Of a stretch of DNA of 39,236 bases, positions 3,430-35,400 are shown one piece after another. Each line of letters opens with the position of its first letter. Position 1 is the first letter of the stretch. Under the pieces are notes generated by a model, which had not been told where the DNA came from, did no database searches, and saw only the letters and a program-made list of their open reading frames with translations. Source of the stretch: Polychytrium aggregatum. Lineage: Eukaryota; Chytridiomycota; Chytridiomycetes; Polychytriales. Position numbers and translations under genes: made by a program. The stretch is taken from contig NW_026516454.1 of the NCBI RefSeq assembly GCF_025602895.1, positions 1 to 39,236 on the forward strand, given 5' to 3'.

Positions 3430-6400
3430 ATGGTCCAAAAATTCCCCTTCGATGGCATGCTGCCAAAGCATGTGAGTCGGCCGTGTCTTTCCGGATGTGC
3501 CCGCGGGCAACTCTCCCCTGCCTCGATCCGCTGTGGCCGGTCCCTGCCTCCCGCATGGCTCCTGTCGTTGTTGCTGAATGTGTGCTGCTGTCCTGGCCCG
3601 TGTCTTCTGCAGGAAACCCAAGCCTTCTCTTTCATCTCGAACCATCCCGAGGTAACGCTGCTGCTGCATGCCGCAATCTCATCCAATCGGCCGCTTCTTG
3701 GTTGCGACTCACCGGATCTCGATTCCCCACAGTACGATGGCCGCGGAACAGTCATCGCCATCTTGGATACCGGTGCGTTGCGACAGCTTGGCTGCTCTCT
3801 CTCTGGCTTGCAATACCGACTCTGCGAACACTGCGGCGCATCAGCCTGCTAATCTTCTCCTCGCTGGCTGCTCTGCTGGCCATCATTTCGTGGGACGCAG
3901 GCGTCGATCCCGGCTCCCCGGGTCTGCAGGTTACCAGCGACGGCAAGCCCAAGGTCATCGACACCATCGACTGCACGGGCTCTGGCGATGTCTCCATGAG
4001 CACCGTCGTTGAGGCCACCGTCGTCACCGAGGAGGACGGCACTGTCAAGCGCACCTTGCAGGGTCTCTCCGGCCGAACCCTGGCCATCGGCAACTGGGAG
4101 AACCCAACGGGCAAATACCGTCTTGGTGTCAAGTCCTACGTCGACCTGTTCCCCCACGATGCTCTCGACCGTCTGAAGAAGGTATCCTGCAGGCTGGCCG
4201 TGTGTGTGCTCGGTTGCTCCGGAGTCGCTGCTGCATCGCTTCCGTCTGCATCTACCGCTGGCTGCACGCCGAGCGGATAAACCTGCAGTCCGCACCCAGC
4301 AGCCTGATCAGCGCTGTCGTTTCAAACGGTCGATGGAGGACTGCTGACCATTATTCCACCGTCTTGCTCTGCAGGATCGCATCAAGGCCTTTGAGCTTGA
4401 GCACCACAAGCTCGCCACCAGCGCCCAGGACCGCCTCGCTCAGTTCGAGCGCGATCACCCTACTCCTTCCGAGGAGGAGGAGAAGATCAAGGCGGACCTC
4501 AAAGCTCAGGTCGAGGTCCTCCGGGACCAGATCAAGGGCTTCAAAGATCCCGGCATGATTTTTGTGAGTGATCTGAGCCCGCTACGGCGTCCCGTCTCGG
4601 CTGCGGCCACATTGTCGTTCTAGATCCACATGCTGACTCTCAAGCCCTTTCCCTTTGCAGGATGCTGTTGTCTTCCACGACGGCACCAAGTGGCGCGCCG
4701 TTGTGGATATCTCCCAGAGCGGCAACCTCGAAGGTAGAAAGCGATAGAGCGGTTGGGTGGGTTTGCGCGGGCGCAGCTGGCCAGATAGACTTGGGCAGGC
4801 GCAGATATATGGGTGCTCCATTGAACCGAAGCACTTTGATCAGAGGATATGCGGCTCTAGTTCAGCCCTGTCTGGTCTGCTCCAGTCTGGTTTGGTCCGG
4901 TCCAGTCGAACACGGCGGCTAATCGGTTTCGCTTGCAGGCCTGCCCCTGCTGACCAACTATGCCGACGAGCGGCAGTTCGTCCGGTTCGACGACCGCAGC
5001 TATCTCAACTTCTCTGTCAACATTTACGATGAGGGCGAGTCGCTCAGGTAGGTGTCGAACGCTGCTCCATGGTCGGTTGTCTTTCGCTATGGCACCGTTA
5101 ATGGTGTGCGGGTGGATTCGCTTCCCTGGCCCTAACCTTGATCGTTGCGCCCGCAACCTGCGACCAGCATCGTGTCTCTTGCAGGTAATTGCCATGACAT
5201 GCTCGTTGCGCTGCCTGCCAAGCATGAGCAGATATGCCGTGCATTATCGGTTCTGGCCTGGCATTGATCCCGGTTGTGTTTTGCCAGGTACCCACGGCAA
5301 CCACGTCGCAGCCATCACCGCTGCTTACTTCCCCGAAGATCCCCGACTGAACGGCGTAAGTATCGGCGTCGCTTGCTGCCCATACCGCAGCACACAAATG
5401 GCGCTTTGCGCAGGCCTTACTGTGCCCTAACGGTCTGCGATGATTCCGTGAATCGACAGGTTGCTCCTGGAGCCCAGATCATCTCCCTGAAGATTGGCGA
5501 CAACCGTCTTGGTAAAGCTTGTTGTCCCGCTCGGTGGTCTCGGCACCTCTACTCGCACGGCCGCTCGGGAAATCAATCTTGACGACGCTGACGCTGAGCT
5601 CCCTCCTCGCACCATTCCAGGATCGGCCGAATGCAGCGCTGGCCTGGTGCGTGCTGCCATCGAGCTTGCTCGCCTCAAGTGCGACCTGGCCAACATCTCG
5701 TACGGAGAGGCTGCTGCCATCCCAAACCAAGGGCGTTTCATCGAGATCTTGCGTGACGAGGTCATCAACAAGAGCAACTGCGTTGTTGTGTCGTCGGCCG
5801 GCAACGAGGGCCCCGCTCTCAGCACGCTTGGTGCTCCCGGCGGCACTTCCTCCGGCGTCATCGGCGTCGGCGCTTATGTCTGCCACTCGATGATGGATGC
5901 CGAGCACTCGCTGCTCAAGCGCGTGGACGAGACTCCCTACACCTGGTCCTCCCGTGGCCCCACCACCGATGGCGACGTTGGTGTCGATATCTTTGCTCCA
6001 GGCAAGTAATCTTGAACATGCGGTGCTCACACGTGTTCATACGGGCCTATGCGTGCTGCATGTGGACGAACTTGGACTGACTTGAGTATACATACAGGTG
6101 CCGCGATCACCTCTGTTCCTCAGTACACCATCCAGGCCGCCCAGCTCATGAACGGCACATCCATGTCGAGCCCCAATGCCTGCGGCTGCTTGGCTCTGGT
6201 AAGTGGGACTGCCACGGCGGAGTTTGTGATGGCCAGCTGCAGATGCCTTGGGTGCTGGAGCAAGCGTAGTGGGGCAACGTCAGCGCTATACTCACGCAGT
6301 CGCTCTGGATTACGAACGCGCACAGCTCGTCTCGGGTCTCAAGGCCGAGGGCATCTACTACACGCCGTATCTGCTCAAGTCCGCTATCCAGTACTCCGGC

Positions 6401-9400
6401 AAGGATGTCCAGGACCCCCTGGGCACCAAGTTCATACAAGTCGAGCAGGCCTGGGAGCACCTGAACAAGCTCGTGGGCCCCACCAAGGGCAATTACGATG
6501 CGAACGATGTAAGCATGATAAGCGTGGCGATGTAGCGGCGTCCCAGTCGAGCAGTTGCAGTGCTGACAGCGTCTGACCGGCCATCGCGATACCTTGGCGG
6601 CTAAACAGATTTCTCTCGCTGACCTGGAGAAGCTCGTCGGAGGCAAGAAGCTGCACTACGATGTGCATTACGATGTATGTATTCGATGTGCTAGCGGCTG
6701 ATGCAGAGGCGGCGCTATGATATGTGCGGCATGCGCGCGGGATGCAGTTGATGCAAGATCGATTGCTGCGAGCTTGGATATCGTAACATAGGTCCTCGGA
6801 CTGAAGTTGACGCCCGGGTGGGTCCGTTTGATTTCCAGATCTCGGTCAAGGACCGCCAGAACGCCCGCGGCATCTATCTCCGCGAGCTGCAGGAAACCAC
6901 CTCTGTCTCGCAGAGCCTTGTCAGTGTCGACCCCAAGTTCCCCAACCACGACGATCCGGCCCAGAACCCCCTGAAGCTCAAGCTGGAATGCTATGTGTCG
7001 CTCGTGACCACACAGAAGTGGATCAGCGCCCCGTCGCACATCTACATCAACAACGGCGGCCGCGCCTTCTCCGTTCGGGTCGATCCCACCAATCTGGCCC
7101 CTGGCCTGCACTTTGGCGAGGTTCTCGCCATCGACAGCACCGCCCCAGAGCTGGGCCCGCTCTTCAGAGTGCCCGTGACTGTGTGCAAGCCCGAGGTGGT
7201 CGAGAATGCCCTGGTCAAGTACAACAACCTCAGCTTCGAGCCCGGCACCATCATCCGCAAGTTTGTGAGCGTTCCGACCGAGGCCAACTTTGCCGAGCTG
7301 ACCGTGCGCATCGACAACCGCGACGCCCCCGGCATCTTCATTGCCCATCTTGTCCAGCTGCAGGCCCAGACCTCGTTTGCCAAGAACGAGCACAGCTACT
7401 GGCTCGGCCTCAACAACACCGGGACCCGTGACAGCGACGACAAGAATGTCTACAAAAAGACCCTCTCTGTCCTTCCTGGCGTGACCCTCGAGGTCTGTCT
7501 GGCGCAATTCTGGTCGACGCTCGATGAGTCTACTGTCAGCGTCGAGGTTGTCTTCCACGGGATTGGCGTGGTTTCGTCTGGCTGTGCCCTCGGCGACAGC
7601 AGCGTCACCGCCGGTGGAACGAACATTTGGCTCAACAGCGGCAACAACGGATTCGACCGTCTCGACATTGTCGCTGGTATCCGAAAGGAGAACATTGCCC
7701 TCAAGGCCAATCTTGGTGAGTGTGCCGAATGCCACAGTGGATTCCTGCCGTGCAGCCTCGTCTCGCCTCGTCTCTCCGATCCCGCTCGCTCGCTGCCTTT
7801 CCAGCAGACCGGACTGTTGGCTGAAAGGCTGGCTCGCTCTGATTCGTATCCATTCGCCTTTGTCATCGACAGACATCCACCGTCGCTCGATCCGCCCGTC
7901 CGAGACATTGACGGCTCCCCTCAAGTCGCGCGATGTCTTGCCGGACGGCCGCCAGCTCCATGAGCTTGTCCTGACCTACACAGTCAAGACTGCCGCCGCC
8001 GCCAAGACCACGTTCCGGTTCCCTAAACTCAATGACGTCCTGTACGATAGCGCTGTGGAGGGATTCTTTGTTGTCGTTTTTGACGCCAACAAGAAGGTGG
8101 TCTCGTCGCAGGTAAGGGTTTGCGGATCGTGTCGCCTTCCCCTCGGGCTGGAGCAAATGGGCGTGTGTGGACGCGAAGGTGGATGAAGAATCGGAATCGG
8201 CAGACGCCAGACGACCGATGCCGGACGACAAAAATCGGCCGACAGTCACCGGGAGGCGCATGCTCTTTCGTAGGGACTCAGATCCGATTGCAATATCGCC
8301 CCGGATAGCCGCTTGGCTCCGAAAGCTCATCGCGGCTGGTGCCTAACGCATCGAACTTGGCTTTGTCCATCCAGTATACCTTTAGCGATCGCACCAAGAA
8401 CGTTGACCTGAACGAAGGCACCTACACCGTGCGAGCCCAGGTTGTCTCGGGATCCGTCGAGCTTCTCGACAAGCTCAGCAGCATGCCCTTGATTGCAGAT
8501 GCCGCCTTCAAAGCCGCTTCGCTGCCGGTGTACTCAGCCATCTCGGATCTGATTGCGGGCTCGAGCGCCGGCCTCAAGACCAAGTCGCTCAAGAAGGGCG
8601 AGCGCACCGCGGCCTGGGTGGGTCCTCTGGACGACTCGAGCCTGCCCAAGGGTGCCCAGCCCGGCGATTTGCTGATTGGCACAGTGGAGGTCGCCGGGGA
8701 TGGCGCCTCGATCGACGGAGGGCTCTACAAGGCCTTCTACCTCGTCCCCAGCGAGAAAAAGTCTGCCGACAAGCCCGCCAAGACCGCCGAGGAGCCCAAG
8801 AGCGATGCCGAGCAGCTCAAGGAGGCCATCCGCGATCTCGAGATCAGCTGGATCAAGAAGATCAAGGACGAGGATGTGCTCAAGGCCCTGACCGAGAAGC
8901 TCCATGCCGAGTACCCGACGCATCTGCCCCTCCTTACTACTCGCCTCGAGGCTCTTGCTGACAAGATCAAGTCTGCTGAGGACGCCGAGCTGCTTGCCGA
9001 GATCCAGACCCTGATCGACACGGTGCTGCAGGTTGTGGATCTGGACCAGCTCGCGATCTATTTCGGCGTCCAGCACGACCTCACAAGCGAGCGCGAGAAG
9101 CAGCGCAAGAAGGAAAAGGACGCCCAGAAGGATGCAGTCATCCTGGCGCTCCGAACTCGTGCCAAGGTTCTGCAACTCCAGGTCCAGAAGCTCGACGGCA
9201 AGAAGGACGAAGCCGAAGCCCCGCAAGAGTCGGACGCCGATGTTCCTCCCGTGAGCGAGAAGGAGGACTTGACCAAGCAGTACGATCAGACCCTCGAGGA
9301 ATATGCCAAGTGGCAGGCTGACCAGTACAGCAACGGTGCCTTCCTGAAGCTCTGGGCCTGGAGAGAGTCGCAGAAGGGACTCTATGGCCAGGTTCTGAAG

Positions 9401-9568
9401 CACCTCAACAAGTATCTCGCCGAGGCCAAGAACCTCGAGTCGCCCGAGTGGAAGGAGCTCAGCGCTCTTCGACGCGAGATCTACAGCGCCCTTGGCTGGA
9501 CGATCTGGAAGGACTATGAGGAGACGTGGTCTGTCCTGAACGAGCCCAAGTCGTATGCCCCGTTTTAA
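3430..9568 (+). CDS. TPP2: Tripeptidyl-peptidase II (subtilisin-like serine exopeptidase, S8)
   Basis: TPPII is a giant cytosolic exopeptidase that removes N-terminal tripeptides downstream of the proteasome. Exons: 3430-3471, 3613-3651, 3733-3772, 3901-4181, 4375-4563, 4661-4733, 4939-5047, 5168-5184, 5288-5355, 5460-5511, 5621-6001, 6098-6198, 6326-6508, 6609-6674, 6839-7715, 7873-8111 and 8375-9568, total 1316 aa against about 1250 in animals. The catalytic triad is visible: Asp39 (AILDTG), His266 (GTHGNHVA) and Ser452 (NGTSMSSP), with oxyanion Asn365 (SSAGNEGP). The long insert between Asp and His typical of TPPII is present, as are GIYLRE and the [11 protein letters not shown] region. 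The lysine/glutamate-rich helical C-terminus has no recognised second enzyme. The ATG context is caccATGg. Intron 11 is GC-AG and exon 8 is 17 nt. The junction at 6674/6839 is chosen because it gives [17 protein letters not shown] in frame. The gene is convergent with the chitinase. Confidence 0.95.
5168..5184 (+). other. TPP2: 17-nt micro-exon of TPPII
   Basis: The exon is flanked by cgaccag upstream and gtaatt downstream. It supplies one base of a Ser codon, IVSLA, and one base of the following Gly. Inclusion gives [16 protein letters not shown] leading into the catalytic His; skipping it breaks the frame (17 nt) and removes a segment conserved in TPPII. Confidence 0.85.
6002..6097 (+). other. 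TPP2: GC-AG intron in TPPII
   Basis: The donor is CCAG|GCAAGT and the acceptor is ATACAG|GT. The splice joins FAPG to AAITSVPQ without a frame break, matching the APGGAI-type sequence in this part of the subtilisin domain. A GT donor four bases downstream (gtaatc) would shift the frame. Confidence 0.85.
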
Positions 9569-10244: not shown

Positions 10245-12554
10245 TCACTTGCGGAACTCGGCCACGGCGGCGGTGATGAGCTCGCCGTGGATGCCGGCAG
10301 CGGCGTCGTAGTAGTCCTCGCTGAGTTCCCAGGCAAAGACACCGAGGTTCCACTGCTTAGCAAACTTGACCTTCTGCTGGATCGACTTGGTGTCGTCGTA
10401 GGTGATGAAAACGCTGGTGTTGGTGTTGACGAGGGTGGGGGCCTGGATGGTGAAATTTGTCGCACGCGGCGCAGCAGCAACAGGAGAGCAGTGAGTCGAA
10501 GGCATAGCCAGCGATACCGCAGCGGAGAAGCAGCTCGATATGTGAGAGATGGCTTGGCAGCTGTCAAGTAGCTTGGCCTGTGAAACCCGGCCTTACCTGG
10601 ATCTTGCCGCCGTGCCAGGTGCGGACCCAGGGCTTCTGAGCCTTGGACTTGGACACCAAGACACCCTGCTCGCGAAGGCCACGGTAGGACCAGTCGCCCG
10701 AGACAGTGGGGACGCCGGTGCATGGGTCAGGGGCAGGAGTGTCGTACTTGTCGCCCTGGATGGGAGGGCACGCCTGCGGGTTGTTGGGATCAACTTGGGG
10801 GAGGCAGAGCTGGAAGACGCCGTCGCCCTTGACAGGAGCACCGAGGGCGATCGAGTGGCCGTTGAATTCGAGGCCCAGACGGAGCTTGCTGGCGGGGATG
10901 CCGAGCTGCTTGACAAAAGTGGTCACGGTCTGGTTGATGGAGACGTCGCCGTTGGGGCTGCTGGCATCGCTGTAGAGCGGAGTGTTGTAGTCGGTGTAGG
11001 GGTTCCAGTTGCCGTTGTAGTCGTAGGTCATAACTGCACCAGCGCGTCGATGAGGAGGATTTCAGCGAACACATAGGCGTCAATAGAGTTGATACTGCGT
11101 GCCACAATCCGGACTGGTGGTAATGCTGGCCAGTTCGAGTCCAGACAGGGACTCGGGTGGAGGATAGCGTGTCGCTAGTGCCATTATCAAGATGATACGG
11201 ACACGCTGTTGACACATCGAGAGACATTGCTGGAGGCAGCACGATACCCGACAGACTCACTGTTGATCTTGTCGAGAGTGTTGGCGTAGACGGGAATCCA
11301 GTTCTTGCCGGAGCCATCGGAATAGGTGGAAGCGGTGGCGCCGATGGCAGCGGTGATGGGGTGGCTGCTTCCAATCTTCTGGCGCAGCAGAACGAGGGTC
11401 TTGTTGAAGTTGGAGTAGTCGTCGGGGCTGATGACGTTGCAGCCAGCACCGTAGTTGTTGGGATATCTACGAGAGGGAGGGAGAGGGACAGCACCATGAG
11501 ACAGCGAGCGATGGAATGCGATGAGACAATATCGGGTGGACTGATGGGGGCCGACGGAGAAGCAAGGTTATACTCACTCCCAATCTGGCGAACCAAAGTG
11601 AACGAAAACTGTGTGAGTGATTGGCGGCGCAGCTGCGTTGACAAAACGCCAGGAACGTTCGCCTCATGGATCAAGTCGATCGAACGTCGGTGCGGCAGTG
11701 TGCGACGCGAGACTCTAATCCGTACCAATGTCGATGCCGTCAAAGCCAAGCTGCTTGATGAGAACGTCGTAGGCCGAGTTGACAAAGGCCTGGCGGTTGG
11801 TATCGTTGAAGGCATTGGAAAAGTAGGTGGATGCGGTCCAGCCTGGCAACAGAGCCATCGACAGAGAGTGTCAGCAAGCCAGAACAGACAGGCTTGTGTC
11901 GCAACAGAGGGCCTGCAGGCAACCACCATCCATTTCCGGGCACTGGGCGTACCTCCAATCGAAGCACTTGATACCGGCAAGTTGAGGATGGAAGCAGTCG
12001 CGTGCAACGGTGATGACAATGGGTCAGGGGCGATGTGGATGGATCAGCGGCGGCGCTGGTGTGGATCGGCAGCAGCAGCCCAGAGCAAGCAGCCCGCAGC
12101 CGTGGAGGGCGCACCGGGCCAGAATCAAGGGCGAGGTAGTCTGCAGAGCAAAGACAGACAAGCGACATACAGAGTCTTGAAGCCGTATTTCTTGCGGAGC
12201 TGGCCGTTCAGCACAGGGATGAGGTTGGCATCGGCGCTGGAGTCGGTGGAGAGGACGGTGCCGTTGGAGGCAACTTGGAAGAAGGCTGCGAGACACAGAG
12301 CGGTCAATGAGACAGTTGCAGCGGCAGGCTTGGTCTGGACGATATCCTCGGGCGAGCGACCATGGCCGCGGCCGTGGCTGCCTCGTACCGTAGATGACCT
12401 GGTTGATGTTGCTGAAGTTGATGCTGGTGTAGTCGCGGTCGGTCCAGTTGGGGATGTAGGCGGCAAAGTCCTGCTTGGGCACGGGGGTGGACACGGCGGC
12501 GGCCGAGCAGAAGGAGGCGAGGGCAAGGACACTGCTGACGAGGGCGAGTCTCAT
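10245..12554 (-). CDS. Secreted GH18 chitinase, eight exons
   Basis: The product hydrolyses beta-1,4-GlcNAc polymers; in a fungus it would serve wall remodelling, nutrition or substrate penetration. Exons on the minus strand: 12554-12389, 12285-12171, 11966-11953, 11842-11726, 11584-11578, 11466-11261, 11033-10597 and 10442-10245, total 419 aa. MRLALVSSVLALASFCSA is a signal peptide. GH18 landmarks are AAYIPNW (beta-1), LASIGGWTAS (SxGG), the catalytic signature DGIDIDWEYP (D133, D136, D138, proton donor E140), IMTYDYNGNW, and near the end FITYDDTKSIQQKV with GVFAWELSEDY. No carbohydrate-binding module is seen. The start has a strong context (cgccgccATGa). Two micro-exons of 14 and 7 nt carry parts of the SxGG and DxxDxDxE motifs, and the catalytic Glu codon is split GA|A. 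The gene is divergent from RDH54. Confidence 0.93.
11578..11584 (-). other. 7-nt micro-exon in the chitinase active-site motif
   Basis: The exon ATTGGGA lies between acceptor ttcgccag and donor gtgagt. With G from the upstream exon and A from the downstream exon it encodes Asp-Trp-Glu of DIDWEYP. Skipping it would shift the frame and remove the catalytic acid. Confidence 0.9.
11953..11966 (-). other. 14-nt micro-exon in the chitinase SxGG motif
   Basis: TGCTTCGATTGGAG lies between an AAG acceptor (ggtatcaag) and donor gtacgc. It supplies LASIG and the first base of the next Gly, joining KKYGFKT to GWTASTYF. The phase arithmetic (1+12+1) fits both neighbours exactly. Confidence 0.85.
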
Positions 12555-16100: not shown

Positions 16101-19100
16101 ACTCCAGCGATTCCAAACACCTCGCAGGATCATTTTATCGGGCACTCCTATTCAGGTGCGCGTGGTAGTCTAGTCTCTGAGCGGGCCTATCCGCACCCGT
16201 GAACATTGCGTCTGCACCGACAAAGTTGCCCCAGGCTCATTCTAACCGTTGGACACCTGTATCGGGCATTTTTACTGCGCTGCAATCGCCATGCTCGCTG
16301 TTGGATGGCCTCAATGCACCGTTGTTTGAAACACCGCGCCGGGCCGGGCACCAGAACGACCTTGGTGGGTGGTCTGAGCCGTTGATTGCTGCTGGAACAC
16401 GATCCCCAAGACCATGGCTAACGATGCATCATCGCTTTGGACACCAGGGGAATTCTTTGGTTTGTGATGTGCTTTGCCTGTGTCTCGTCGACCGGTTGGC
16501 TCACCGTAATCGCTCACGCCCGGTACTTGACTTAGCCATGGTAGACTTTGTGAACCCCGGGATCCTCGGGGAATACGCATCGTTCAAGGTATCTCCCATG
16601 CAAGCTGCGCTTCCACATGCACGTCTCTCGCCCTGCCAACGACTCAATATCATATGCAATCCCGGCGCTTCTGAGATTCTTCTTGAATAAGCTCATTATG
16701 AAAGGGTAACTCGTCTTTCGTTTATCTCCGCAGCGCAAGTTTGAGAATCCCATCGTCGCTTCGCGGGATGCCTCATGCAATCCATATCAAGCCGAACTGG
16801 GCACCACTCGTTCCGAGGAGGTATGCCGCACCAACTCGCATCCACGGCGATGTGCCTGATCGTTCGAGAGAGCGATTCGAATGCCTCAGGCAAGAGCAAT
16901 CCGGGCAACGGGCGCAAGTGGAGGATTATAACGGCATGATGCGTTCTTCTCTACAGCTCCGCAGAATCACCAGCTCCTTCATCTTGCGGCGAACAGCGGA
17001 CATCAACGCCCAGTATCTGCCGAGTCGAACCGAGTACGTGCTCTTTTGTCGCCCATCGGAAGTGCAGTCGGACCTCCTCGCACAGATTTCAGCCTCGCAG
17101 TTCGTGTCGGACACGATCAACGGCTCTGGAGCAAGCATCCTTGGTAAGATGTGCTGCTGCATTGCTCTGGCCAGAGAGAAACAACGCCACCATCGTCCAG
17201 ATGATCCCAAAACACCCGCAGTCTAACTAAGGATACATGATATTGTCGCCTGCTGTCAACCTGAATCGATTCAGGAATACTCAATACTATGAGAAAGCTC
17301 GCTGGAAGTCCTCAGATGGTACCACCAGTCTGCATTTTGCAATGACACAGTCTATTCGCCCGTGAGCCGGACTGGCTCGCTTGTCTGGTGCAGCTCCAAA
17401 ATGCACTGACCTACGTGTTGCGTGCAGATTGTCGACGATCTTGAAGAATGGAACCTGGCGGTTCTGCCGGAGCATGAGGATCGCTTGCTGGGCTGCCAGA
17501 ATCAACTACTGCTGGAGTTTAGTGGTAGGCACTTGATCGTGTGTGCACCGAAGCCTCCCGATTTGGTTCACCGTCGATGCACCATGATAATCATCGGGAT
17601 GCACTCAACAGGCAAGCTATGTGTTCTTGCGGATCTGCTTCATAATATCAAAACCAACACGTCCGAGAAAGTCGTTGTCGTTTCAAACTGGACCCAGATA
17701 AGTGTATACCGCCGTCTGCAACCACTTTTGTGGCCGACATTGGCCTGCGGCTCCGTTCAAACACAATCCCCATTTCCTGCGTTTCGCTATCCACACCTTG
17801 GATATAGTACAAGAGCTCTGCACCCAAAAGGGATACACATTTGCACGGCTGGATGGATCTGTCCCAGCGCAGAACCGGCAAAAGTAGGTCACTGTCCGCA
17901 GCACTCTCGCGACTCTCTGCAAGCATCTGATCGTACGTTGGTCTCCAGACTCGTCGACGACTTCAACAACACCTCCAGGCAATGTAAGAGGCGATATGGA
18001 GCGGTTTGAGGCTCAAGCCTTGGGAATCATGCTTGTGCGCAATGCTTGTGTCCAAACGGCACTTCACTGATGCATACTTTGACAGTCGTCTTCCTTCTCA
18101 GCTCGAAGGCTGGAGGTGTTGGCCTCAACCTGATCGGCGCCTCGAGGCTGATCATGTTCGATATTGGTAAGATGCGTTCGAGTGAATGTTGGCTGATCTG
18201 TCGGAACCCTTGTTCACTCCATAAACTCAACGGTGCTTTCAGACTGGAATCCCAGCGTGTGTCGTCAAGGTACGTTGCCAGGCCTGTCGCCGGACCATGA
18301 TCTTCAGATGGTTGCGTTTGCGCAACTCACCATCCCCCCCCCCGACTCTCCAATCGTCGGGTCTGCTCGGCGATAGCCATGGCACGAATCTGGAGGTAAG
18401 TCAAGCATGCCCAGGATCTTTGTAAAGTCAACACATAAACTCTGATATCCGGCTCACCCCTGTTCCAGAGATGGCCAGAAACGACCTGTCAAGATCTATC
18501 GACTGTTGCTGTGAGTAGCCCGGCAGTGCATCTTCAAAGCGCAGTCGGCCCCCTCCTCTGACCTAGCACGCTTATACCACAGGACGGGCTCAATAGAAGA
18601 GCGTATCTTCCAAAGACAGATCAAAAAGCTCGATTTGAGCGATGCCATCGTGGTATGGTGCAGATCTTGACTGTATCGAAGTCTGCGCTGTAAAACTAGC
18701 TCGTCGACCGACCATATGGTACCTTTCCATTCGCCCACAGGATCAAAAAGGACAAGTTATCGATGGATTTGATCCACAGGAGGTACGCGCGCCAAACGAT
18801 CCGATAACAGCACACCGACGCTCTCTGGAGAGCGGATTCCCGTGTGCCAAAGAAAAGAAAAGCCGTTTTTGATTCGTCGATTCGATTATCCAGCTGAGGG
18901 ACCTGTTGACATTTCGAGGCAACACCAAATGCCTTACACACGAGATCATGACCTGTGGCTGCCAGGTAAGCAGACGCGGCAGTGGCGAGGATCCGATGAT
19001 ACCGTCCCTGCATACACCATCGGGTCGCATGCACAGACATCCGCTTGACTGGCGCTACACTATGCGATATATCTAACGAGCGCACTGTCCTTTTTGCTGA

Positions 19101-23400: not shown

Positions 23401-26400
23401 CATTCTTGACTCCTTTCCCACACAGGCGATTGGAAGATATCGCGAAAGGGCCTCCGAAATCATGAACAATCCACGCAGCGTGGACTTGCCCATGGTGGCG
23501 CTACGCTGCGATGAGTTGCACAAGGCTCTCGCAAGCAAGTCCATGGAGCTTTCGAACCAGTTCCTCAACAAAATCATTCAAACAAATGCCGAACATCAGC
23601 AAAGGTGTGCTTCTCGGCCTTAGTTCTTGCTATTGGGGGGGTGTCTTTTTGCAATCGACTTCCAAGATGACCCGTGCTCTCCACCATTGGGAACTGGAGT
23701 TCCCATTTTGCCCTATCCAGCCTCCGCTGCGATCGGCGTTTCTATATGAGTGTATCGGACTAAAATGGCATATCGAAACGGAGTAGCATGGCTAGGTGTG
23801 TCGCAGCGACTGATCCATTTTATTAATCAACACATCGACTTGGCGACCGTGGAATGCTCTCGCTACAAACCCAGCATCTGTCGGCGATACGAGGTAATCC
23901 AAGAAAAGGCCCTGCGGATTCCAGAGAACTTCAAGGAAATGGCCGACCAGATGGCTTACATGGACGAAGTCCGCAATGTCGAGTTGCCCTCCCTCCTGAC
24001 CGAGCTCGAGGAGGCCCGGAAGCGCCTCTCGTATATACTCAACTTCTCGGCCTTGACCGAGGAGCACATCAATCTCAACAACGTCACCTTCACTTGGCCC
24101 GTGCGAATCGTTCCCATCCTCGAGAGACACAACGAAATCATTGGCGAGGCTCGCGAAAAGTCCGAAGTCAGTCTGAAGGAGCGCCGCACAAAGTTTGAGC
24201 AGGAGCTGGATGAGTTTGCCGCCCAGGTGGAAGATCTCAAGGACGTCGGAGACCTCGACGAAATGCCCTTCTACGTCAAGAAGGTCCAGACCCTGGCCAA
24301 GCAGCTCCAAACGGCCTCGGACACCATCGCCTCATTCAACCGCGAAGAGCAGCTCTTTGGCTGGAGCGTCACAGTCTATCCTCAGCGCAAACAAATCCTG
24401 GCCGCGCTCGAACCCTACCAGGCGCTCTATACAACAGCCGTGAACTTTCAAAAGTCCTATAAGCGGTGGATGGACGGAGGCCTGCTGGAGCTGGACGCAG
24501 AGGTGATCGAGCAGGAGGTTGACGCCCTCAAGCGAGAAATGTACCGCGTGGTCGGAACACTTGTTCAGGCAGCAGCTCCCCAGAACTTGGCAAAACAAGT
24601 GCGTGAAAAGATCGATGAGTTCATGGTCAACATCCCCGTGATTCGAGTTCTATGCAACCCTGGTATGCGCGACCGACACTGGAACAAGCTCTCTGCTGTC
24701 GCCGGGTTTGACATCAAGCCCGACAGCACAAGTTCTCTGAGGAAGATGCTCAAGAACAACCTCGAGCAGTTTCTTGATCCTTTCCAGGAAGTTAGCGGTG
24801 AGTCATGTGCCTCGGTCACTTAGCTCTTGCTCAGCCCATGGGTCCGCCGCCGGCTTAGGCTGCAGATACCAACGAGTTACGTAGTGCAGCACAGCGCGAT
24901 TCTAACAGATCCCTCGTCCTAGATGCGGCATCAAAGGAGTACACGCTCGAGAAGAACTTGACCAAGATGGTGACTGAGTGGGACCCGCTCGAGCTCACTC
25001 TCCTCGCCTACCGCGAGACAGGAACCTTCATTCTCTCCTCTGTCGAGGAGGCACAGCAGCTGCTCGACGACCAGATTGTCAAGACACAGTCCATGCGCGG
25101 CAGCCCGTACATCAAGCCGTTTGAGCAGCAGATCAAAGAATGGGAGAAAAAGCTGCTCACGACACAGGAGATTCTGGATGAGTGGCTCAAGGTTCAGGCG
25201 ACGTGGTTGTACCTCGAGCCCATCTTTAGCTCCGAGGACATCATGAACCAAATGCCAGAGGAAGGCCGAAAGTTCCGAATGGTGGACCAAAGCTGGAAGA
25301 AGATCATGGGGGTATGTCTAACGACTCATCCCGGAGCGGCGATGCTGCTAAACTCAAGCCAGCCGCATTTGCGTGTTCCAGCCTCAGGTACTGACCGTAC
25401 TCTCTGCAACGCCCCCAGATTGTCAACGAAGACCGCCATGTCCTCAAGGTCACCGACATCCCCAATCTTCTTGACGACATGCAAAAGAACAACGTCCTGC
25501 TGGAAGAGATTCTGAAGGGCCTCAATTCGTATCTGGAGCTCAAGCGCTTGTACTTCCCGCGCTTCTTCTTCTTGTCAAACGACGAGATGCTGGAGATCCT
25601 GTCCGAGACCAAGGACCCCACACGTGTCCAGCCCCATCTCAAAAAGTGCTTCGAGGGCATTGCCACGCTTGACTTTGACGACAAACTGGACATCCTGGCC
25701 ATCCAGTCGAGCGAAAAAGAGCGGCTCCCGCTGGCACAGCGAATCTCGACGGCCGAGGCAAAGGGATCGGTCGAAAAGTGGCTCTCGCAGGCAAGCCCAG
25801 TCCCGCTTCTCCCATTCTGTCGTCGCACGAGACTTCATTTGTTCGGCGATCAAAACCATCCATTCTAGTTCTAAGGTCCTTTGCGCGAATGGATCGGCAG
25901 TGGCCCCAACATATTGTCTGGGCTCAGAGCGCTGAACGCTTTGTTTTGTCTCATATCGCAATACCCAGGTCGAGTCGCTCATGCTCAGAAGTGTCCATTC
26001 GGTCATGGAAGAGGCCTACATAGCCTATCCGCAGAAGCCCCGCGCTCAATGGGTACTGGACTGGCCGGGACAAGTTATTCTGTGCGTCAGCTCTATTTTC
26101 TGGACGTCTGATGCCGAGAAGGCCATCGAAGGTGGAAAGAAGGGCCTGGAGAACTTCCACGCCAAACTGAACTCGGACTTATCTGACGTCATCCGACTCG
26201 TTCGCGGGCAGTTGAGCAAGATGGCGCGCCTGACGCTTGGTGCACTGGTCGTCATCGATGTCCACGCCCGTGATGTTATCCAGCTGCTTGCTGCCGAGGG
26301 CATCAGTGATATCAGCGACTTCAGCTGGCTCGCGCAGCTGCGCTACTACTGGGAGGATGAAAATGTCATGGTCAAAATGATCAACGCCCAGCGGCTGTAC

Positions 26401-29400
26401 GGATACGAGTATCTGGGCAACTCGCCCCGCCTCGTGATCACGCCCCTGACGGATCGCTGCTACCGCACTCTGTTTGGTGCCTTGCATCTCAACCTCGGAG
26501 GTGCCCCGGAGGGCCCTGCCGGCACAGGCAAGACCGAGACAACCAAGGATCTCGCCAAGGCCCTGGCCAAACAGTGCGTCGTCTTCAACTGCTCAGATGG
26601 CTTGGACTACCTCGCCATGGGCAAGTTCTTCAAGGGACTTGCCTCTGCTGGGGCCTGGGCCTGCTTCGACGAGTTCAACCGCATCGATCTCGAGGTGCTT
26701 TCGGTCGTCGCACAGCAAGTGTTGACGATCCAGCGCGCTATAGCCATGAAGGCGCGCGACTTTATGTTCGAAGGTACCAAGCTGGTGCTCAATCCAACGT
26801 GCGCCGTGTTCATCACCATGAATCCAGGCTATGCTGGCCGATCCGAGCTGCCGGACAACCTCAAGGCCCTGTTCCGTACCGTCGCCATGATGGTGCCCGA
26901 CTACACCCTCATAGGCGAGATAACCCTGTACTCGTTTGGCTTTATCGAGGCGCGCAACTTGGCCCGCAAGATCACCGCCACCTATCGACTTTGTTCCGAG
27001 CAGCTGTCGTCGCAGGACCACTACGACTACGGCATGCGGGCGGTGAAGAGTGTCCTCACCGCTGCCGGCAACCTCAAGCTCAAATATTCAGAGGAGGACG
27101 AGAACATCCTGGTGCTGCGGTCCATTATCGACGTCAATCTCCCAAAGTTCCTGTCGCAGGACATTGCCCTGTTTAAAGGCATTGCTACGGACCTGTTTCC
27201 GGGCGTACAGCTGCCAAAGCCTGACTACGAGCTGCTCGAAGGTGCAATCCAGAAGGCTTGCGCCTCGATGCATCTGCAAATGGTGCCCCCGTTCCTCGAG
27301 AAGATCATACAACTCTACGAGATGATGCTGGTCCGCCACGGCTTCATGCTTGTTGGCGAGCCATTTGCTGGCAAGACGTCGGCATACCGGGTGCTCGGGG
27401 ATGCCTTGGGCGATTTGGCAGTGACCCAGGGCGGCGAAGAGTGGCAGAAGGTGCAGTTCAAGGTCATCAACCCCAAATCGATCACCATGGGTCAGTTGTA
27501 CGGCCAGTTTGATCCGGTTTCGCACGAATGGACGGACGGCGTTTTGGCGACGTCGTTTCGAAGCTTCGCCAGCTCTACGAGCCCGGATCGCAAGTGGGTC
27601 GTTTTTGACGGGCCTGTGGACGCCATCTGGGTCGAGAACATGAACACTGTCCTGGACGATAACAAGAAGCTTTGTCTCATGAGCGGCGAAATCATCCAGC
27701 TATCCAACACAATGAGCTTGGTGTTCGAGGTCATGGACCTGGCTGTGGCTTCGGTACGTGGCTGCTCGGAGCTCACTCCACCGCTGGGATTCGGCCATTG
27801 CAGCGGCCACTCGCGGTTCTGGACTCATGCTGTATTGGGTCGTGGCTAACTGGATATTTGCTTGCAGCCTGCAACAGTGAGTCGCTGCGGAATGGTCTAC
27901 ATGGAGCCTGAGCGACTCGGGTGGCGGCCGCTCCTCAGTTCGTGGCTCGAGCGCATGGAAACTCTGCGCCCAGAGTATGCCAAGTACATCAGCCAGCTCT
28001 TTGAGATCTTTGTGCCTCCGTCAATCCAGTGCGTTCGCAAGGACTGTCGTGAGCTCTCCCCAACATCCGATATCGGTCTTGTCAACTCGCTCATTCGGCT
28101 GCTCGACAGCCAGATCGCCGAGTTCCAGGAGGCCAAGGTGACAAAAAACGACAGTCTGCTTAAACAACGACTCGAGTGCTTCTTTTTGTTTTCGCTTGTC
28201 TGGTCGGTTGGCGGCAGCGTTGATACCCCAAGCCAGCTCAAGTTCGACCACATGCTTCGTAGCCTGCTCTCGCGCCTGAGCACTCCGCTCACTCTGCCTA
28301 TTCCCGATGAGGGAACCGTTTACGACTATGTCTTCGAGACGAACGAGGATGCCGATCAATGGACGCTCTGGCTCAGCACCATTCAGCCAACCCCCATTCC
28401 AGCCGAGGCAGAGTTCAACGACATTGTCATCCCGACAAAGGACACGGCACGCTACAACTATCTCATGGACCTCTTGATCACCCACAACAAGGCCTTCCTG
28501 ATTGTCGGGCCAACCGGCACGGGCAAGTCCAAGTACATCGGAAGCAAGCTCCTCACGGGGGTCTCCAAGGAACGATACATCCCGCTCTTCATCAACTTTT
28601 CAGCGCGCACGAGCGCCAACCAAACCCAGGACATTGTCATGTCCAAACTCGACAAGCGGCGCAAGGGTGTCTTTGGTGCCCCTGTCGGGCGCCGGTTCCT
28701 GATCTTCATCGACGATCTGAACATGCCAGCCAAAGAGCAGTACGGTGCCCAACCCCCGATTGAACTGTTTCGCCAGTGGTTTGATCATGGCAACTGGTAC
28801 GACAAGAAGGACACCTCTCGGCTGGAACTCATCGACATTCAAATCATGAGTGCAATGGGTCCGCCAGGCGGTGGCCGCAATGCGGTAACACCGCGGTTTC
28901 TGCGGCACTTCAACCAAATCGTCATCAACTCCTTTGACGACATAACCATGTCGCGCATCTTCAACTCAATCTTGGACTGGCACTTCAATTGCTTCGAGTT
29001 TACCGAGGAAGTGATCTCGCTGGGCACCAAGATCGTCGATGCCACGACCAACATCTACAAGTGGGCCGTGGAAAACCTGCTGCCAACGCCCGCAAAGACC
29101 CACTATACGTTCAACCTGCGGGACTTTTCAAAGGTCATCCAAGGCCTAGTTCTGTCCAAGCCGGCGTTCTTCCCCGACAGCGCCAACATCATCCGGCTCT
29201 GGGTGCATGAGGTCTACCGGGTGTACTACGACCGCCTGGTCACCGACGACGATCGATACAGCATCTTCTCGCACATCCTGGATGTTGTGAAGCAGTGCTT
29301 TGATTGCGAGCCAGACGAGATCTTTGCCCGGATCGCCACAGGAGAGGATAATGTTCTCATGGAGGAGGACATGAGATCGCTGATTTTTGGGGACATTCTG

Positions 29401-32400
29401 AGCAAGGGCAAGCCTGGAGCAGAGGCCGATTACATCGAGCTCAAGAGCTACGACCAGATCACAGAGATTGTGCAGACCTTTATGAACGAGTACAACCAAG
29501 TCAAAAAAGCCAAGCTCAACTTGGTGCTCTTCCGATTTGCTGTCGAGCACGTTGCCAAGATTTGCCGTATTCTGAAGCTGCCTGGCGGCAACGCCCTCTT
29601 GGTCGGCGTCGGAGGAAGTGGACGCCAGAGCCTCGCTCGGCTCGCCTCGTTTATATCGCAGTACGAGCTCTTCCAAATCGAGATCTCAAAGCAGTACGGC
29701 AGAAACGAATGGAGAGAGGATCTCAAACGCATCCTGCTCCTCGCCGGGGCCGACAATCGCAAGACCGTGTTCTTGTTTCCGGACACCCAGATCAAGGAAG
29801 AGTCATTCATCGAGGATGTCAGCAACCTACTCAACGCCAGCGACGTGCCCAATCTGTTTGCAGCCGACGAACGACAGACAATCATCGAGCGCTGTGTCGA
29901 GAACGCCAACGAGGAAGGAAAGGCCGGCGATGGATCCCCTGCAGCGCTCTACAACTACTTTGTCTCGCGCGTCCGAAACAACCTGCATATCATTTTGTGC
30001 ATGAGTCCCATCGGCGACGCCTTCCGATCGCGACTACGGCAGTTCTCGTCGATTGTCAATTGCTGCACCATCGATTGGTTCCAGGCTTGGCCAGACGACG
30101 CTCTCCAGGCCGTTGCCAAGCAGTTTCTGCATGACATTGACACGGACGAGTCCATCAACGAAGCCATCGTGTCCATGTGCCGCCTGTTCCACCAATCGGT
30201 GATATTCCTCTCGGAAAAGTTCCGGCTGAGCCTCTCCCGCCACAACTATGTCACGCCAACGAGCTACCTTGAGCTGCTCCATGCCTACAAGACGCTGCTG
30301 GCTGCCAAGCGCAGCGAGGTGTCGGCAATCAAGTCGCGCTATGCAAACGGCCTGAACAAGCTGCAGTTTGCGGCCGAGCAAGTCATGCGCATGCAGCGCG
30401 ACCTCGGTGATCTCCAGCCCCAGCTCAAGCGCACCTCCGAGGAAACCACCGAGATGCTTCTCAAGATCCAGAAGGAATCTGTTGAAGTGGAAGCGACCAA
30501 GAGCACTGTCGCTGCGGACGAGGCTGTGGCCTCTGCCAAGGCAGAGGAGGCCCAGGCAATCAAAAACGAGTGCGAAAACGAGCTCGCCCAAGCGCTCCCA
30601 CTCCTGAACGCCGCCTTGGCAGCCCTCGATACCCTCAAGAAGAGCGACATTGATCTGGTCAAGGCGATGAAGAACCCGCCGGACGGCGTCAAACTTGTCA
30701 TGGAGGCTGTCTGTGTCATGAAGGACATGAAGCCGGAGAAGGTTCCAGATCCATCCGGCTCCGGAAGGATGGTCTTTGACTACTGGAAGACCTCCCTCAA
30801 GATGCTGGGAGACCCAAAGTTCCTGGAAACCCTCAAGATGTTTGACAAGGATGATATCCCGGCGCACGTCATCAAGAAGATTCGGCAGACCTACATCCCG
30901 AATCCCGAATTCAAGCCCGACAAGGTCCGGAACGCCTCATCGGCTGCCGAGGGCCTGTGTACCTGGATCGTTGCGATGGAATCGTATGACCGCGTGGCCA
31001 AGGTGGTGGCCCCGAAGCAAATCGCCCTTGCCCGCGCCGAAGCGGAACTGGCCGAGACCATGGCAGGTCTGGCTGAGAAACGGGCAACGCTCAAATCCGT
31101 GGTTGATCGCCTGCAGGCCCTCGACGACAACCTCACGGCGCTCTCTCGAAAAAAGGACAGGCTCGAGAAGGAGGTCAAGAGCTGCGAGGAGCAGCTCGAC
31201 CGTGCGCAGAAGCTTCTGGGTGGACTCGGCGGCGAGAAGCAGCGCTGGACGGAAGTCGTCCACCAGCTCGACGGAACCCTCTATCATCTGACCGGAGATG
31301 TGCTGATCTCGGCCGGTGTGATCGCCTATCTTGGCGCATTCACCAAAATGTATCGACTCGAGTGCATAAACGAGTGGCTGAAAAACTGTCGCGAGTACCG
31401 CATCCCATGCTCCGACACATTCTCCCTCGACAAGACCCTGGGCGACCCGATCAAGATCCGCGCCTGGAATATTGCTGGACTGCCGACCGACCAGTTCTCG
31501 ATCGACAACGGAATCATTGTCCAGAACGCGCGCCGATGGCCGTTGATGATCGACCCGCAGGGCCAAGCCAACAAGTGGGTCAAGAACATGGAGAAGGACA
31601 ACAACGTCATCATCATCAAGCTCACAGACAACGACTACATCCGCAATCTTGAAAACGCCATCCAGTTTGGCGTGCCAGTGCTGCTCGAGAACGTGAAGGA
31701 GGAACTCGATCCAATCCTCGACACCATCCTGCAGAAGCAGACCTTCAAGTCGGGCGGCACAACCTGCATCCGTCTCGGCGACGCCGTGGTTGAGTACTCG
31801 CCCAACTTTCGACTGTACATCACCACCAAACTCCGGAATCCGCACTATCTGCCCGAGCTTGCTGTCAAGGTCTCACTACTAAACTTTATGATCACGCCAG
31901 AGGGTCTGGAAGATCAGCTTCTCGGCATCGTCGTCCAGAAGGAGCGACCTGAGCTGGAAGACGAGAAAACACAGCTGATTCTGCAGTCGGCCGAAAACAA
32001 GCGCAAGCTCAAGGAAATCGAGGACCAGATCCTGCAGATTCTCTCGTCGGCCGAGGGCAACATCCTGGAGAACGAAACCGCGATCGAGGTTCTGTCGTCG
32101 TCGCGGGTTATTTCCGTTGAGCTGTTCGAGAAGCAAAAGATCGCCGAGGAAACCGAGCACAAGATCGACGAAACTCGCGAGTCGTATCGGCCGATTGCAC
32201 GACACTCGTCCATCCTCTTTTTTTGCATCGCCGACGTTGGGAACATTGACCCGATGTACCAGTATTCGCTGGTGTGGTTCATTGATCTGTTTGCAAACGC
32301 CATCGTGACATCGGCAAAGTCCAGCATCCTCAAGCGACGGCTGAAGAACCTGGAAACCCACTTCACGTACTCGCTGTACTGCAACGTCTGTCGATCGCTC

Positions 32401-35400
32401 TTCGAGAAGGACAAGTTGCTGTTCTCGCTGATGCTGTGCTACAACATTCTCAAGAGCCGTGATGAAATCGACGAGAGCGAGTTCCAGTTTTTCTTGACCG
32501 GTGGAATCGGTCTTGCCGCCCCAAGCTCGGCCAATCCAGCTCCCGGGTGGCTCTCGGACAAATCGTGGTCGGAGATCTGCCGACTCTCTGATCTACCCGC
32601 ATTCAAAGCAATGAAGGACGAATTTGTGCCAATCGAGTGGAAGATTTATGCCGAAAGCAACGAGCCACACATGCTGACGCCGCCGGGCAAGTGGTCCGCG
32701 CTCAACGACTTCCAGAGGCTGATACTGACTCGCATTATGCGGCCCGAGAGAGTCGTCCCTGGCATCCAAGAGTACATCAAGATCAAGATGGGTCACAAGT
32801 TTATCGAGCCGCCCAACTTCAATCTGGCCGAGAGCTTTGATGACTCGAGCAACAGAACGCCGCTGATCTTTATTCTGTCACCAGGAGTGGATCCTATGGC
32901 GCAGTAAGTGCGGATGTCCTGGCGGTATTATCGTCATGGAGAGGCGCGGAGCTTCAGCACCGGCGAAGCCGAGCGCAGGCTGAGGCGAGTTGCGAGGATG
33001 GCACGGCGGCGACAGCATATGCGAGGAGTATATATGAGAAGCACTGTGATCCAAACTGCTGGACTGGTGGATCGACGAGTGAGGCGGTGAATGCTGTGGA
33101 CTGCGGCACGATGTGTCCACACGGTGCTGGGTATGCCACGCCGTGCCTGGCGATGGGGTGCTGATGCTTCTGTTCTCGAAACAAAGGCTCCTGAAGTTTG
33201 CCGATGACAAAGGCTTCTCGGGCGCAAAGTGCCAGTCCATTTCACTCGGCCAAGGCCAGGGTCCAATCGCCGCTGCGATGATCAAGGACGCTCAGAAGCT
33301 CGGCACATGGGTTGTGCTCCAGAACTGCCATTTGGCGGTCAGCTGGATGGGTGTCTTGGAGAAGATTGTTGACGACATGACTTCGGGTGCTGTCCACAAG
33401 GAGTTCCGACTGTGGCTTACCAGCTACCCGAGCCCAAAGTTCCCGTCCTCCATCCTGCAGGCCGGTGTCAAAATGACAAACGAGCCGCCAAAGGGGCTGC
33501 GAGCCAATCTGATCAAGAGCTATCTGTCCGACCCCATTTCCAACGAAAAGTTCTTCTACGGGTGCTCGAAGCCTGCCGAGTGGGAGAAGCTGCTGTTTGG
33601 GCTGTGTACCTTTCATGCCATTGTGCAGGTACGACAGCACGGCTGCTACATCGTGCGCTCGACTGCAATCAGTGCCCTTGCAATCGAGAGTCACCGAAAT
33701 TGCATGGCGTGTTGCTGATTCCACTTCGCTTCCGTGTATGTATCGGATTCAGGAACGGCGCAACTTTGGCCCACTTGGATGGAATATTCCGTACGAGTTC
33801 AACGAGTCTGACCTGAGTAAGTGCAGCATGCATAGCGCCGTGGACACATGAATGTCCCGGCCTTCGACTGACGCACCCAATCGCGCTATTTCGTCGCCGT
33901 ATACAAACTGCCTCGCAACAGGAATTAGCATCCGACAATTGCAAATGTTCTTGGACGACTATGCCGAGATCCCATTCAAGGCCCTGACCTACCTGACGGG
34001 CGAGTGCAACTACGGCGGGCGAGTGACCGACGACTGGGACCGCAGGACGCTGATGAGCATCTTGACGACGTTCTACAACCCGGCGGTGATCGAGGAGGCT
34101 CAGTACAAGTTCTCGCCCTCGGGTATATACTATGTGCCGCCGCGGGGCAAGTACGAGAGCTATCTCGATTATATGAAGGCACTGCCGCTGAACCCGAGTC
34201 CAGAAATCTTTGGCATCCACGACAACGGCGACATTGCGCGGCAGCTCGCGGAAACAAAAGGGCTGTTTGACTCGATCCTGAAGACCATGGAGGGCAGCTC
34301 GGGCTCGTCAGGGGCCGGAGGCAAGTCCAACGACGAGATCTTGATCGAGGTCGCAACCGACATTCTGTCCCGTGTGCCCGCCACGTTCATGATCGAGGCC
34401 GCCATCCAGAAGTACCCCGTGAACTACAACGAGAGCATGAATACGGTCCTAATCCAGGAGATGATTCGGTTCAACCGTCTGATCCAAGTGGTACTCGTGA
34501 GCCTCGTCAACGTCCAGAAGGCGATTCGCGGCTTCATTGTGCTCTCGGCCGAGCTGGAAGAAGTGTGCAAGAGCATCTTGGTGGGTCGAGTGCCGGCCAT
34601 GTGGGCAGCCAGGTCATATCCGTCGCTCAAGCCGCTTGCAGCCTACGTCAACGACCTGGTTGCCCGAATCAGGTTCTTCCAGGAGTGGTACGAGCAGGGT
34701 TGCCCGAAGGCTTTTTGGATGGCTGGGTTCTTCTTTACGCAGTCGTTTATCACAGGTGAGTCTCGCCGACACTGATTTCACCCAGAGATTGCCACCGTGT
34801 CCGCACAGATTCCGCTGGTGCTGACGCAGCCGCCCTTTCTCCACCAGCAACGCTGCAAAACTATGCCCGCAAAAACACCATCCCGATCGACGAGCTTGGA
34901 CTCGAGTTTGAGGTCCTGAAGACTCCCAGTGATCAGGCGCAGCAGCTGCTCCCACCGACCAGCGGCGTGCATGTCTTCGGCATCTTCCTCGAGGGCGGCC
35001 GGTGGGACCGCAACACGGGATACCTGGGCGAGTCTCTGCCCAAGGTGCTCTTCGACACCCTGCCTGTGATCTGGTTCAAGCCTGTTCGCCAGGCCGACAT
35101 CAAGAAGGACAACCTGTACGTCTGTCCGATCTACAAAACCAGCGCGCGGAGAGGCGTGCTGTCGACCACGGGTCACTCGACCAACTTTGTCATTCCGATC
35201 CGGCTGCCATCGGACAAGCCAGAGAAGCACTGGATCATGCGCGGCGTCGCAGCACTGTGAGTATTGCCCAGCTATACAATGCGACGTATTCATGCGGGAG
35301 GGGCAGAGACAGAGGGGATAAACCCGACAGAGACGCCGCAGCGGTCGAGAGTATGCGGCGATCGAGAGTATGCGGCGATCGAGAGTATGCGGCGATCGAC

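Follow-up and report, generated by a model that had tools for sequence, protein, structure and literature searches.

The window, by which we mean the whole stretch of DNA that was analysed (39,236 nucleotides, positions 1-39236), is the entire contig C171 of the 64.7-Mb assembly of Polychytrium aggregatum, and its minus strand carries a complete chitinase gene (12554 to 10245) whose eight exons are joined through GT-AG introns. Strain JEL109 of P. aggregatum, a member of the Polychytriales, is reported to be chitinophilic and rich in GH18 (PMC12115818). Elsewhere in the window, the plus strand holds a tripeptidyl-peptidase II gene in several pieces (5494-9568, three open frames matching Peptidase_S8 and TPPII domains), a weak match to an SNF2-related domain (16741-17226; 24.5 bits, just under the curated cut-off of 24.9), and a dynein heavy chain gene (23750-34775), of which frames 23750-24823, 25981-27849, and 33852-34775 match dynein domains. 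Between these dynein-matching frames lies a 1681-aa frame (27862-32907) that is long and uninterrupted, unlike the chitinase gene. On the minus strand, 37571-38116 encodes an N-terminal portion of a COX15-type cytochrome oxidase assembly protein, matching positions 2-62 of the 322 in the profile.

The chitinase gene, all of it on the minus strand, begins with exon 1 (12389..12554, 166 nt; from the spliced model, which equals the deposited protein P0001), which supplies the start codon and an N-terminus (MRLALVSSVLALASFCSAAA) that appears signal-peptide-like when judged by eye. Exon 2 (12171..12285, 115 nt) encodes AFFQV...FKTL and is followed by exon 3 (11953..11966), a 14-nt micro-exon (TGCTTCGATTGGAG) flanked by ag before and gtacgc after, which gives A-S-I-G plus the first base of the next Gly (SxGG); the SIGG motif is shared between this exon and the start of exon 4. 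This exon was absent from the earlier sequence-only reading of the locus. Exon 4 (11726..11842, 117 nt) ends in GACGGCATCGACATTG, encoding DGIDI and the first base of Asp138, and intron 4 (11585..11725; 141 nt here, 136 nt on the related contig C268) has donor gtacgg and acceptor cgccag. Exon 5 (11578..11584) is the 7-nt micro-exon ATTGGGA. It is separated by intron 5 (11467..11577, 111 nt; donor gtgagt, acceptor ctcgtag) from exon 6 (11261..11466, 206 nt), which begins A/TATCCC (the last base of Glu140, then YP; slashes mark borders), and the gene is completed by exon 7 (10597..11033, 437 nt), with an MTYDY motif, and exon 8 (10245..10442, 198 nt, stop codon counted in).

The order of elements at the site is thus GACGGCATCGACATTG/gtacgg...cgccag/ATTGGGA/gtgagt...ctcgtag/ATATCCC. 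Exon 5 finishes the codon of Asp138 (two bases), contains that of Trp139, and begins that of Glu140 (two bases), to which the A at 11466 adds the third base; the exon has AG/GT borders, runs from phase 1 to phase 2, is internal between canonical introns, and is needed for the frame. The spliced product is an open frame of 419 residues in which DGIDIDWEYP occupies residues 133-142. The sequence-only reading had placed a 7-nt exon at 11584..11578 with these phases and flanks, and is exact in this respect; its claim that DGIDIDWEYP is built from three exons is likewise borne out by the spliced model, identical as that is to P0001. Two of the eight exons are thus 14 nt or shorter and each holds the core of one motif, the 14-nt and 7-nt exons together giving the cores of SxGG and DxxDxDxE, the signature motifs of GH18; Glu140 is the catalytic acid expected for this family.

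Membership of the product in GH18, as first proposed from the letters of the DNA, was confirmed by a profile search and by sequence matches to solved enzymes. PF00704 matched residues 30-397 over profile positions 2-317 of 317 (E 5.8e-56, 190.9 bits), and solved GH18 chitinases matched as well, including that of Rhizomucor miehei (PDB 5xwf, E 4.2e-37, residues 28-397), a solved fungal relative compared at the level of protein sequence. With the 7-nt exon in place the DxxDxDxE motif reads D133 G I D I D W E140, and it is lost on skipping. Among the matches listed (the best 120 of 1867), DWE was present in 118 of 120 homologues and SxGG in 116 of 120. The two departures from DWE were P0002, a truncated P. 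aggregatum paralogue, and P0014 (LWE), so that these 120 of 1867 matches gave no sign of micro-exons missed in homologues without DWE. Viral contigs scanned with P0001 yielded no relatives (three stretches fit a pattern, none of them confirmed).

The spliced model was fixed before any database match was seen, and it is 100% identical over 419 aa to P0001, the deposited P. aggregatum protein annotated as "glycoside hydrolase superfamily", which bears out the chytrid origin implied by the sequence-only reading. P0001 comes from the sister contig C268, and there is one 8-exon GT/GC-AG placement of it on C268 and one on C171, both micro-exons being used. When more exons were allowed on C268, four further placements of nine exons each were obtained, and all five keep the 7-nt exon. 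The exact 8-exon placement was unique in all four micro-exon copies tried (C268, C171, C101, and C61, the relic on C223 left out), and a separate count by another method agreed for C268 and C101. Over the 3.2 kb compared, C268 and the window share 99.8% identity, and at window positions 30000-31500 they share 100%, so that C171 appears to be a duplicate contig or a second haplotype. Both copies of the locus carry the 7-nt exon. They differ in length by 5 bp at window positions 11590-11594, just upstream of the micro-exon acceptor (C171 ctttggttcgccag, C268 ctttgccag), a difference that could alter micro-exon inclusion between the copies.

We assessed how readily such an exon would arise by chance. 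Short in-frame candidates (30 nt or less) are frequent, with 2 in the real gap between exons 4 and 6 and a mean of 4.2 over 500 shuffles; because they are common by chance, the weight rests on the match to DWE. No AG/GT exon restoring DI-DWE-YP arose in 20000 dinucleotide shuffles of this gap (259 nt), in which the neighbouring exon ends were fixed and any codons were accepted, in effect at 7 nt. The 11-base core AGATTGGGAGT occurs once in the window and was matched in 1 of 100 shuffles. Across the 64.7 Mb of the assembly, with patterns chosen once the copies were known, AGAYTGGGAGTRAGT (exon, acceptor AG, and gtragt donor; copies with other donors would be missed) was found five times (C171, C268, C101, C61, C223) and the 14-nt exon pattern AGTGCNTCNATHGGNGGTA six times (C171, C268, C101, C61, C408, C7). 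All matches to either pattern fall in this chitinase subfamily, and reversed-pattern controls gave 0. The 7-nt or 14-nt pattern occurs once in each of six gap regions from four copies, compared with 0-1 of 10000 shuffles, these patterns too having been set after the copies were seen.

The subfamily comprises four gene copies in the genome, three of them on two contigs each. The protein of C101/C61 (P0004) is 50% identical to P0001 and its gene has the same eight exons, with a 14-nt exon TGCATCCATCGGAG and a 7-nt exon ACTGGGA, which lies at the same position and in the same phase and carries a synonymous change in the Asp codon. The protein of C408/C7 (P0003; the C7 copy differs from it by two residues) is 52% identical to P0001, and its gene has a 14-nt exon TGCTTCTATTGGAG and is without intron 4: exon 4 continues through GACTGGGA to the downstream intron, so that DGVDIDWE is encoded in one exon. 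The last copy, on C223 (L014, C223:1119900-1123000), keeps ATTGGGA with a gtaagt donor and exons 6-8 (offsets about 1117-2340). A search of about 7.5 kb upstream of its micro-exon did not recover exons 1-4, the matches there being weak (E 0.98 or worse). The deposited model for C223, P0002, starts in a former intron and closes its new first exon with the ATTGGGA stretch, and we therefore count this copy as a 5'-truncated relic that lends weaker support to the micro-exon. A solved-structure search with P0002 returned nothing further.

Differences between the paralogues in the micro-exons are confined to third codon positions and are synonymous. Identity between paralogues was 79-100% in the micro-exons and 64-86% in the other exons, although with so few bases the micro-exon percentages in themselves are of little weight, and the shared position, phase, and borders are more telling. 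Intron identity to the C268 copy lay near that of shuffled sequence, at 0.59-0.72 versus 0.58-0.67 for C101 (largest excess 0.10, in intron 3), 0.61-0.74 versus 0.60-0.69 for C408, and 0.67-0.74 versus 0.61-0.67 for C223. Together, these results support ATTGGGA as a real coding micro-exon of 7 nt in an eight-exon P. aggregatum GH18 chitinase gene, very probably one that is included constitutively, which is the part that we infer.

An exon of 7 nt is too short to be recognized from both sides at once, and splicing would for this reason be expected to proceed stepwise, by intron definition. Intron 5, with its gtragt donor, would be removed first, creating an ordinary 213-nt exon, and intron 4, with the weaker gtacgg donor, would be removed second. 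This downstream-first order seems to us somewhat favoured over its converse. Under a donor matrix derived from the very 23 introns that it scores, the donors that directly follow the 7-nt exon reach 10.0, 10.0, and 8.5 (ranks 2, 3, and 10 of 23), and both intron-4 donors (TTG/gtacgg) reach 6.2 (ranks 20 and 21 of 23). In matches to CAG/GTRAGT the gap is small (6 of 9 for the donors downstream of the 7-nt exon versus 5 of 9 for the intron-4 donors), and the 14-nt exon is without such a contrast (downstream/upstream donors 7.0/6.2, 5.7/6.2, and 9.4/9.1). These three points, the shared origin of matrix and scores, the small gap in matches, and the behaviour of the 14-nt exon, speak against the proposed order. 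In C408 the downstream intron is spliced in the deposited model and there is no intron upstream at this place, a pattern that counts in favour of that order; the corresponding downstream donor of C408 is weak (6.6), which counts against it.

Intron-4 acceptor tracts are pyrimidine-rich (0.78 in C268, 0.83 in C101, 0.72 in C171). For intron 5 of the C268 copy, the last 18 bases before the AG are the most pyrimidine-rich of all 23 introns (0.94), a feature not common to C101 or C223 (0.56 each), which is a point against our reading. The proposed order is in line with a plant dataset in which introns upstream of micro-exons are reported to be detained more often and, for 16 of 69 micro-exons, reads showed splicing of the downstream intron alone but never of the upstream one alone (PMC8831610).

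Without the 7-nt exon, translation would be frameshifted to a stop at codon 208, giving a 207-aa product without DWE, which bears out the frameshift foreseen by the sequence-only reading. Retention of intron 4 would give a stop at codon 141 after GTD, and retention of intron 5 a stop at codon 141 directly after Glu140. Skipping or retention would thus leave a truncated product without an intact active site, and for this reason selection would be expected to keep inclusion near complete.

A tree of 30 rows joins the C408 and C101 proteins as sisters (support 100/99), the window protein falling outside them, and intron 4 of the C268 copy and that of C101 are identical in position, phase, and donor (TTG/gtacgg). 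The tree and these identities favour a single ancestral intron 4, and its one exact loss in C408 would be simpler than two gains at one site with one and the same donor. It is unlikely, on the same evidence, that the intron was instead inserted separately in the window and C101 lineages with C408 keeping the ancestral form; such independent gain would agree with the single exon encoding DGVDIDWE in C408 and with the more distant relatives in this genome, which read the motif in one frame at 14 of 15 loci, but it is at odds with a tree in which C408 groups with C101 and not with the window gene (100/99) and with a shared position, phase, and donor that fit one ancestral intron lost once. The exception among the 15 own GH18 loci is L005, where the motif was not found in one frame.

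Seven other GH18 loci included in the tree (L001, L004, L006-L008, L023, and L024), which share 35-41% identity with P0001, have the GH18 domain in one open frame and form a separate clade beside a Chytriomyces protein, so that intron-rich and intron-poor GH18 lineages are found side by side in one genome.

The sequence-only reading had further made enzyme activity depend on inclusion of the micro-exon and envisaged regulated skipping; control of activity in this way is speculation, as nothing here points to such regulation, and we rejected regulated skipping as a leading view. A switch of this kind, in which inclusion would be controlled by growth stage or chitin and skipping would turn the enzyme off, strikes us as very unlikely. 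The predicted 207-aa frameshifted product would indeed lack DWE, there is a fungal precedent in the glucose-regulated 20-nt exon of Trichoderma Xlr2 (PMC11121469), and the two locus copies differ by 5 bp before the acceptor, with pyrimidine fractions of 0.72 in C171 and 0.78 in C268. Against a switch, the skipped product is without evident function, 7 nt is not divisible by three, and the arrangement is missing altogether from one paralogue (C408).

A related idea, to which we give hardly any weight, is that the paired 14-nt and 7-nt exons might form a checkpoint, at the level of splicing, on a chitinase that is probably secreted and could attack the organism's own wall. Because retention of intron 4 or 5 leads to a stop at codon 141, slow splicing would keep the message inactive, and if this were true it would be held so until a life stage that needs chitin digestion.

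That ATTGGGA is not an exon at all, but an intron coincidence, part of a pseudogene, or an assembly artefact, with a real protein that is without DWE, is almost certainly wrong in view of the shuffles and genome-wide pattern counts, the conservation in the sister contig and paralogues, and the deposited protein. Each form of this objection was considered and rejected: chance by the shuffles and genome-wide counts, and a pseudogene, for the window copy, by the open 419-aa frame and the full PF00704 match. An assembly error, which the sequence-only reading had kept in view as grounds for doubt, is contradicted by the agreement of C171 and C268 and by the presence of the micro-exon in two paralogues.

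Coding micro-exons in motifs are already established, and the chytrid GH18 case adds to a known type, leaving the understanding of splicing or of chitinases unchanged. Among literature titles and abstract openings, a scope outside which most subscription papers fall, no micro-exon of a chytrid chitinase was found. The gene offers a clean example from an early-diverging fungus, in which catalytic residues are carried on 7-nt and 14-nt exons and paralogues keep the arrangement, which is once absent. It could also provide a small system for studying the splicing, in fungi, of exons below the length needed for exon definition, and annotation that misses micro-exons could make chytrid GH18 genes look inactive or broken.

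Among fungi, cytochrome P450 genes of Phanerochaete chrysosporium are reported to contain micro-exons of 2-10 aa, the shortest exon being 6 bp (PMC1184071). The likeness lies in very short exons within a large fungal enzyme family; the difference is that those micro-exons are spread over the family, with no tie to a catalytic motif described in the text on these genes (PMC1184071). The 20-nt micro-exon of Trichoderma Xlr2 is regulated by glucose, and its authors state that functional micro-exons had not previously been described in filamentous fungi, although they also mention predictions in three fungal genes and a function in Schizosaccharomyces pombe (PMC11121469). Xlr2 resembles the present case as a fungal micro-exon on a conserved functional motif, with canonical introns and third-position changes among relatives. 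It differs in being a transcription factor with glucose-regulated inclusion, whereas the chitinase micro-exon sits in the enzyme gene itself.

In plants, exons of 1 nt have been confirmed by RT-PCR (PMC8831610), so 7 nt is not the known minimum, and the view that such an exon is near the lower limit of splicing was overstated. The placing of a micro-exon on a catalytic motif, also put forward from the sequence, stands for this gene, but such an arrangement was already known from the plant acid invertases (GH32), in which a 9-nt micro-exon encodes the DPN of the beta-fructosidase motif (PMC8831610, PMC4579127). In both cases, as far as those sources describe the invertases, a coding micro-exon in a glycoside hydrolase gene encodes part of a motif essential for catalysis and is conserved in a gene family while missing from some members. 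The invertase exon differs in its length of 9 nt, a multiple of three, in its occurrence in plants, and in belonging to an unrelated enzyme family; that of the P. aggregatum chitinase is 7 nt long, with a frameshift predicted if it is skipped, and is accompanied by a second micro-exon, of 14 nt, in the same gene.
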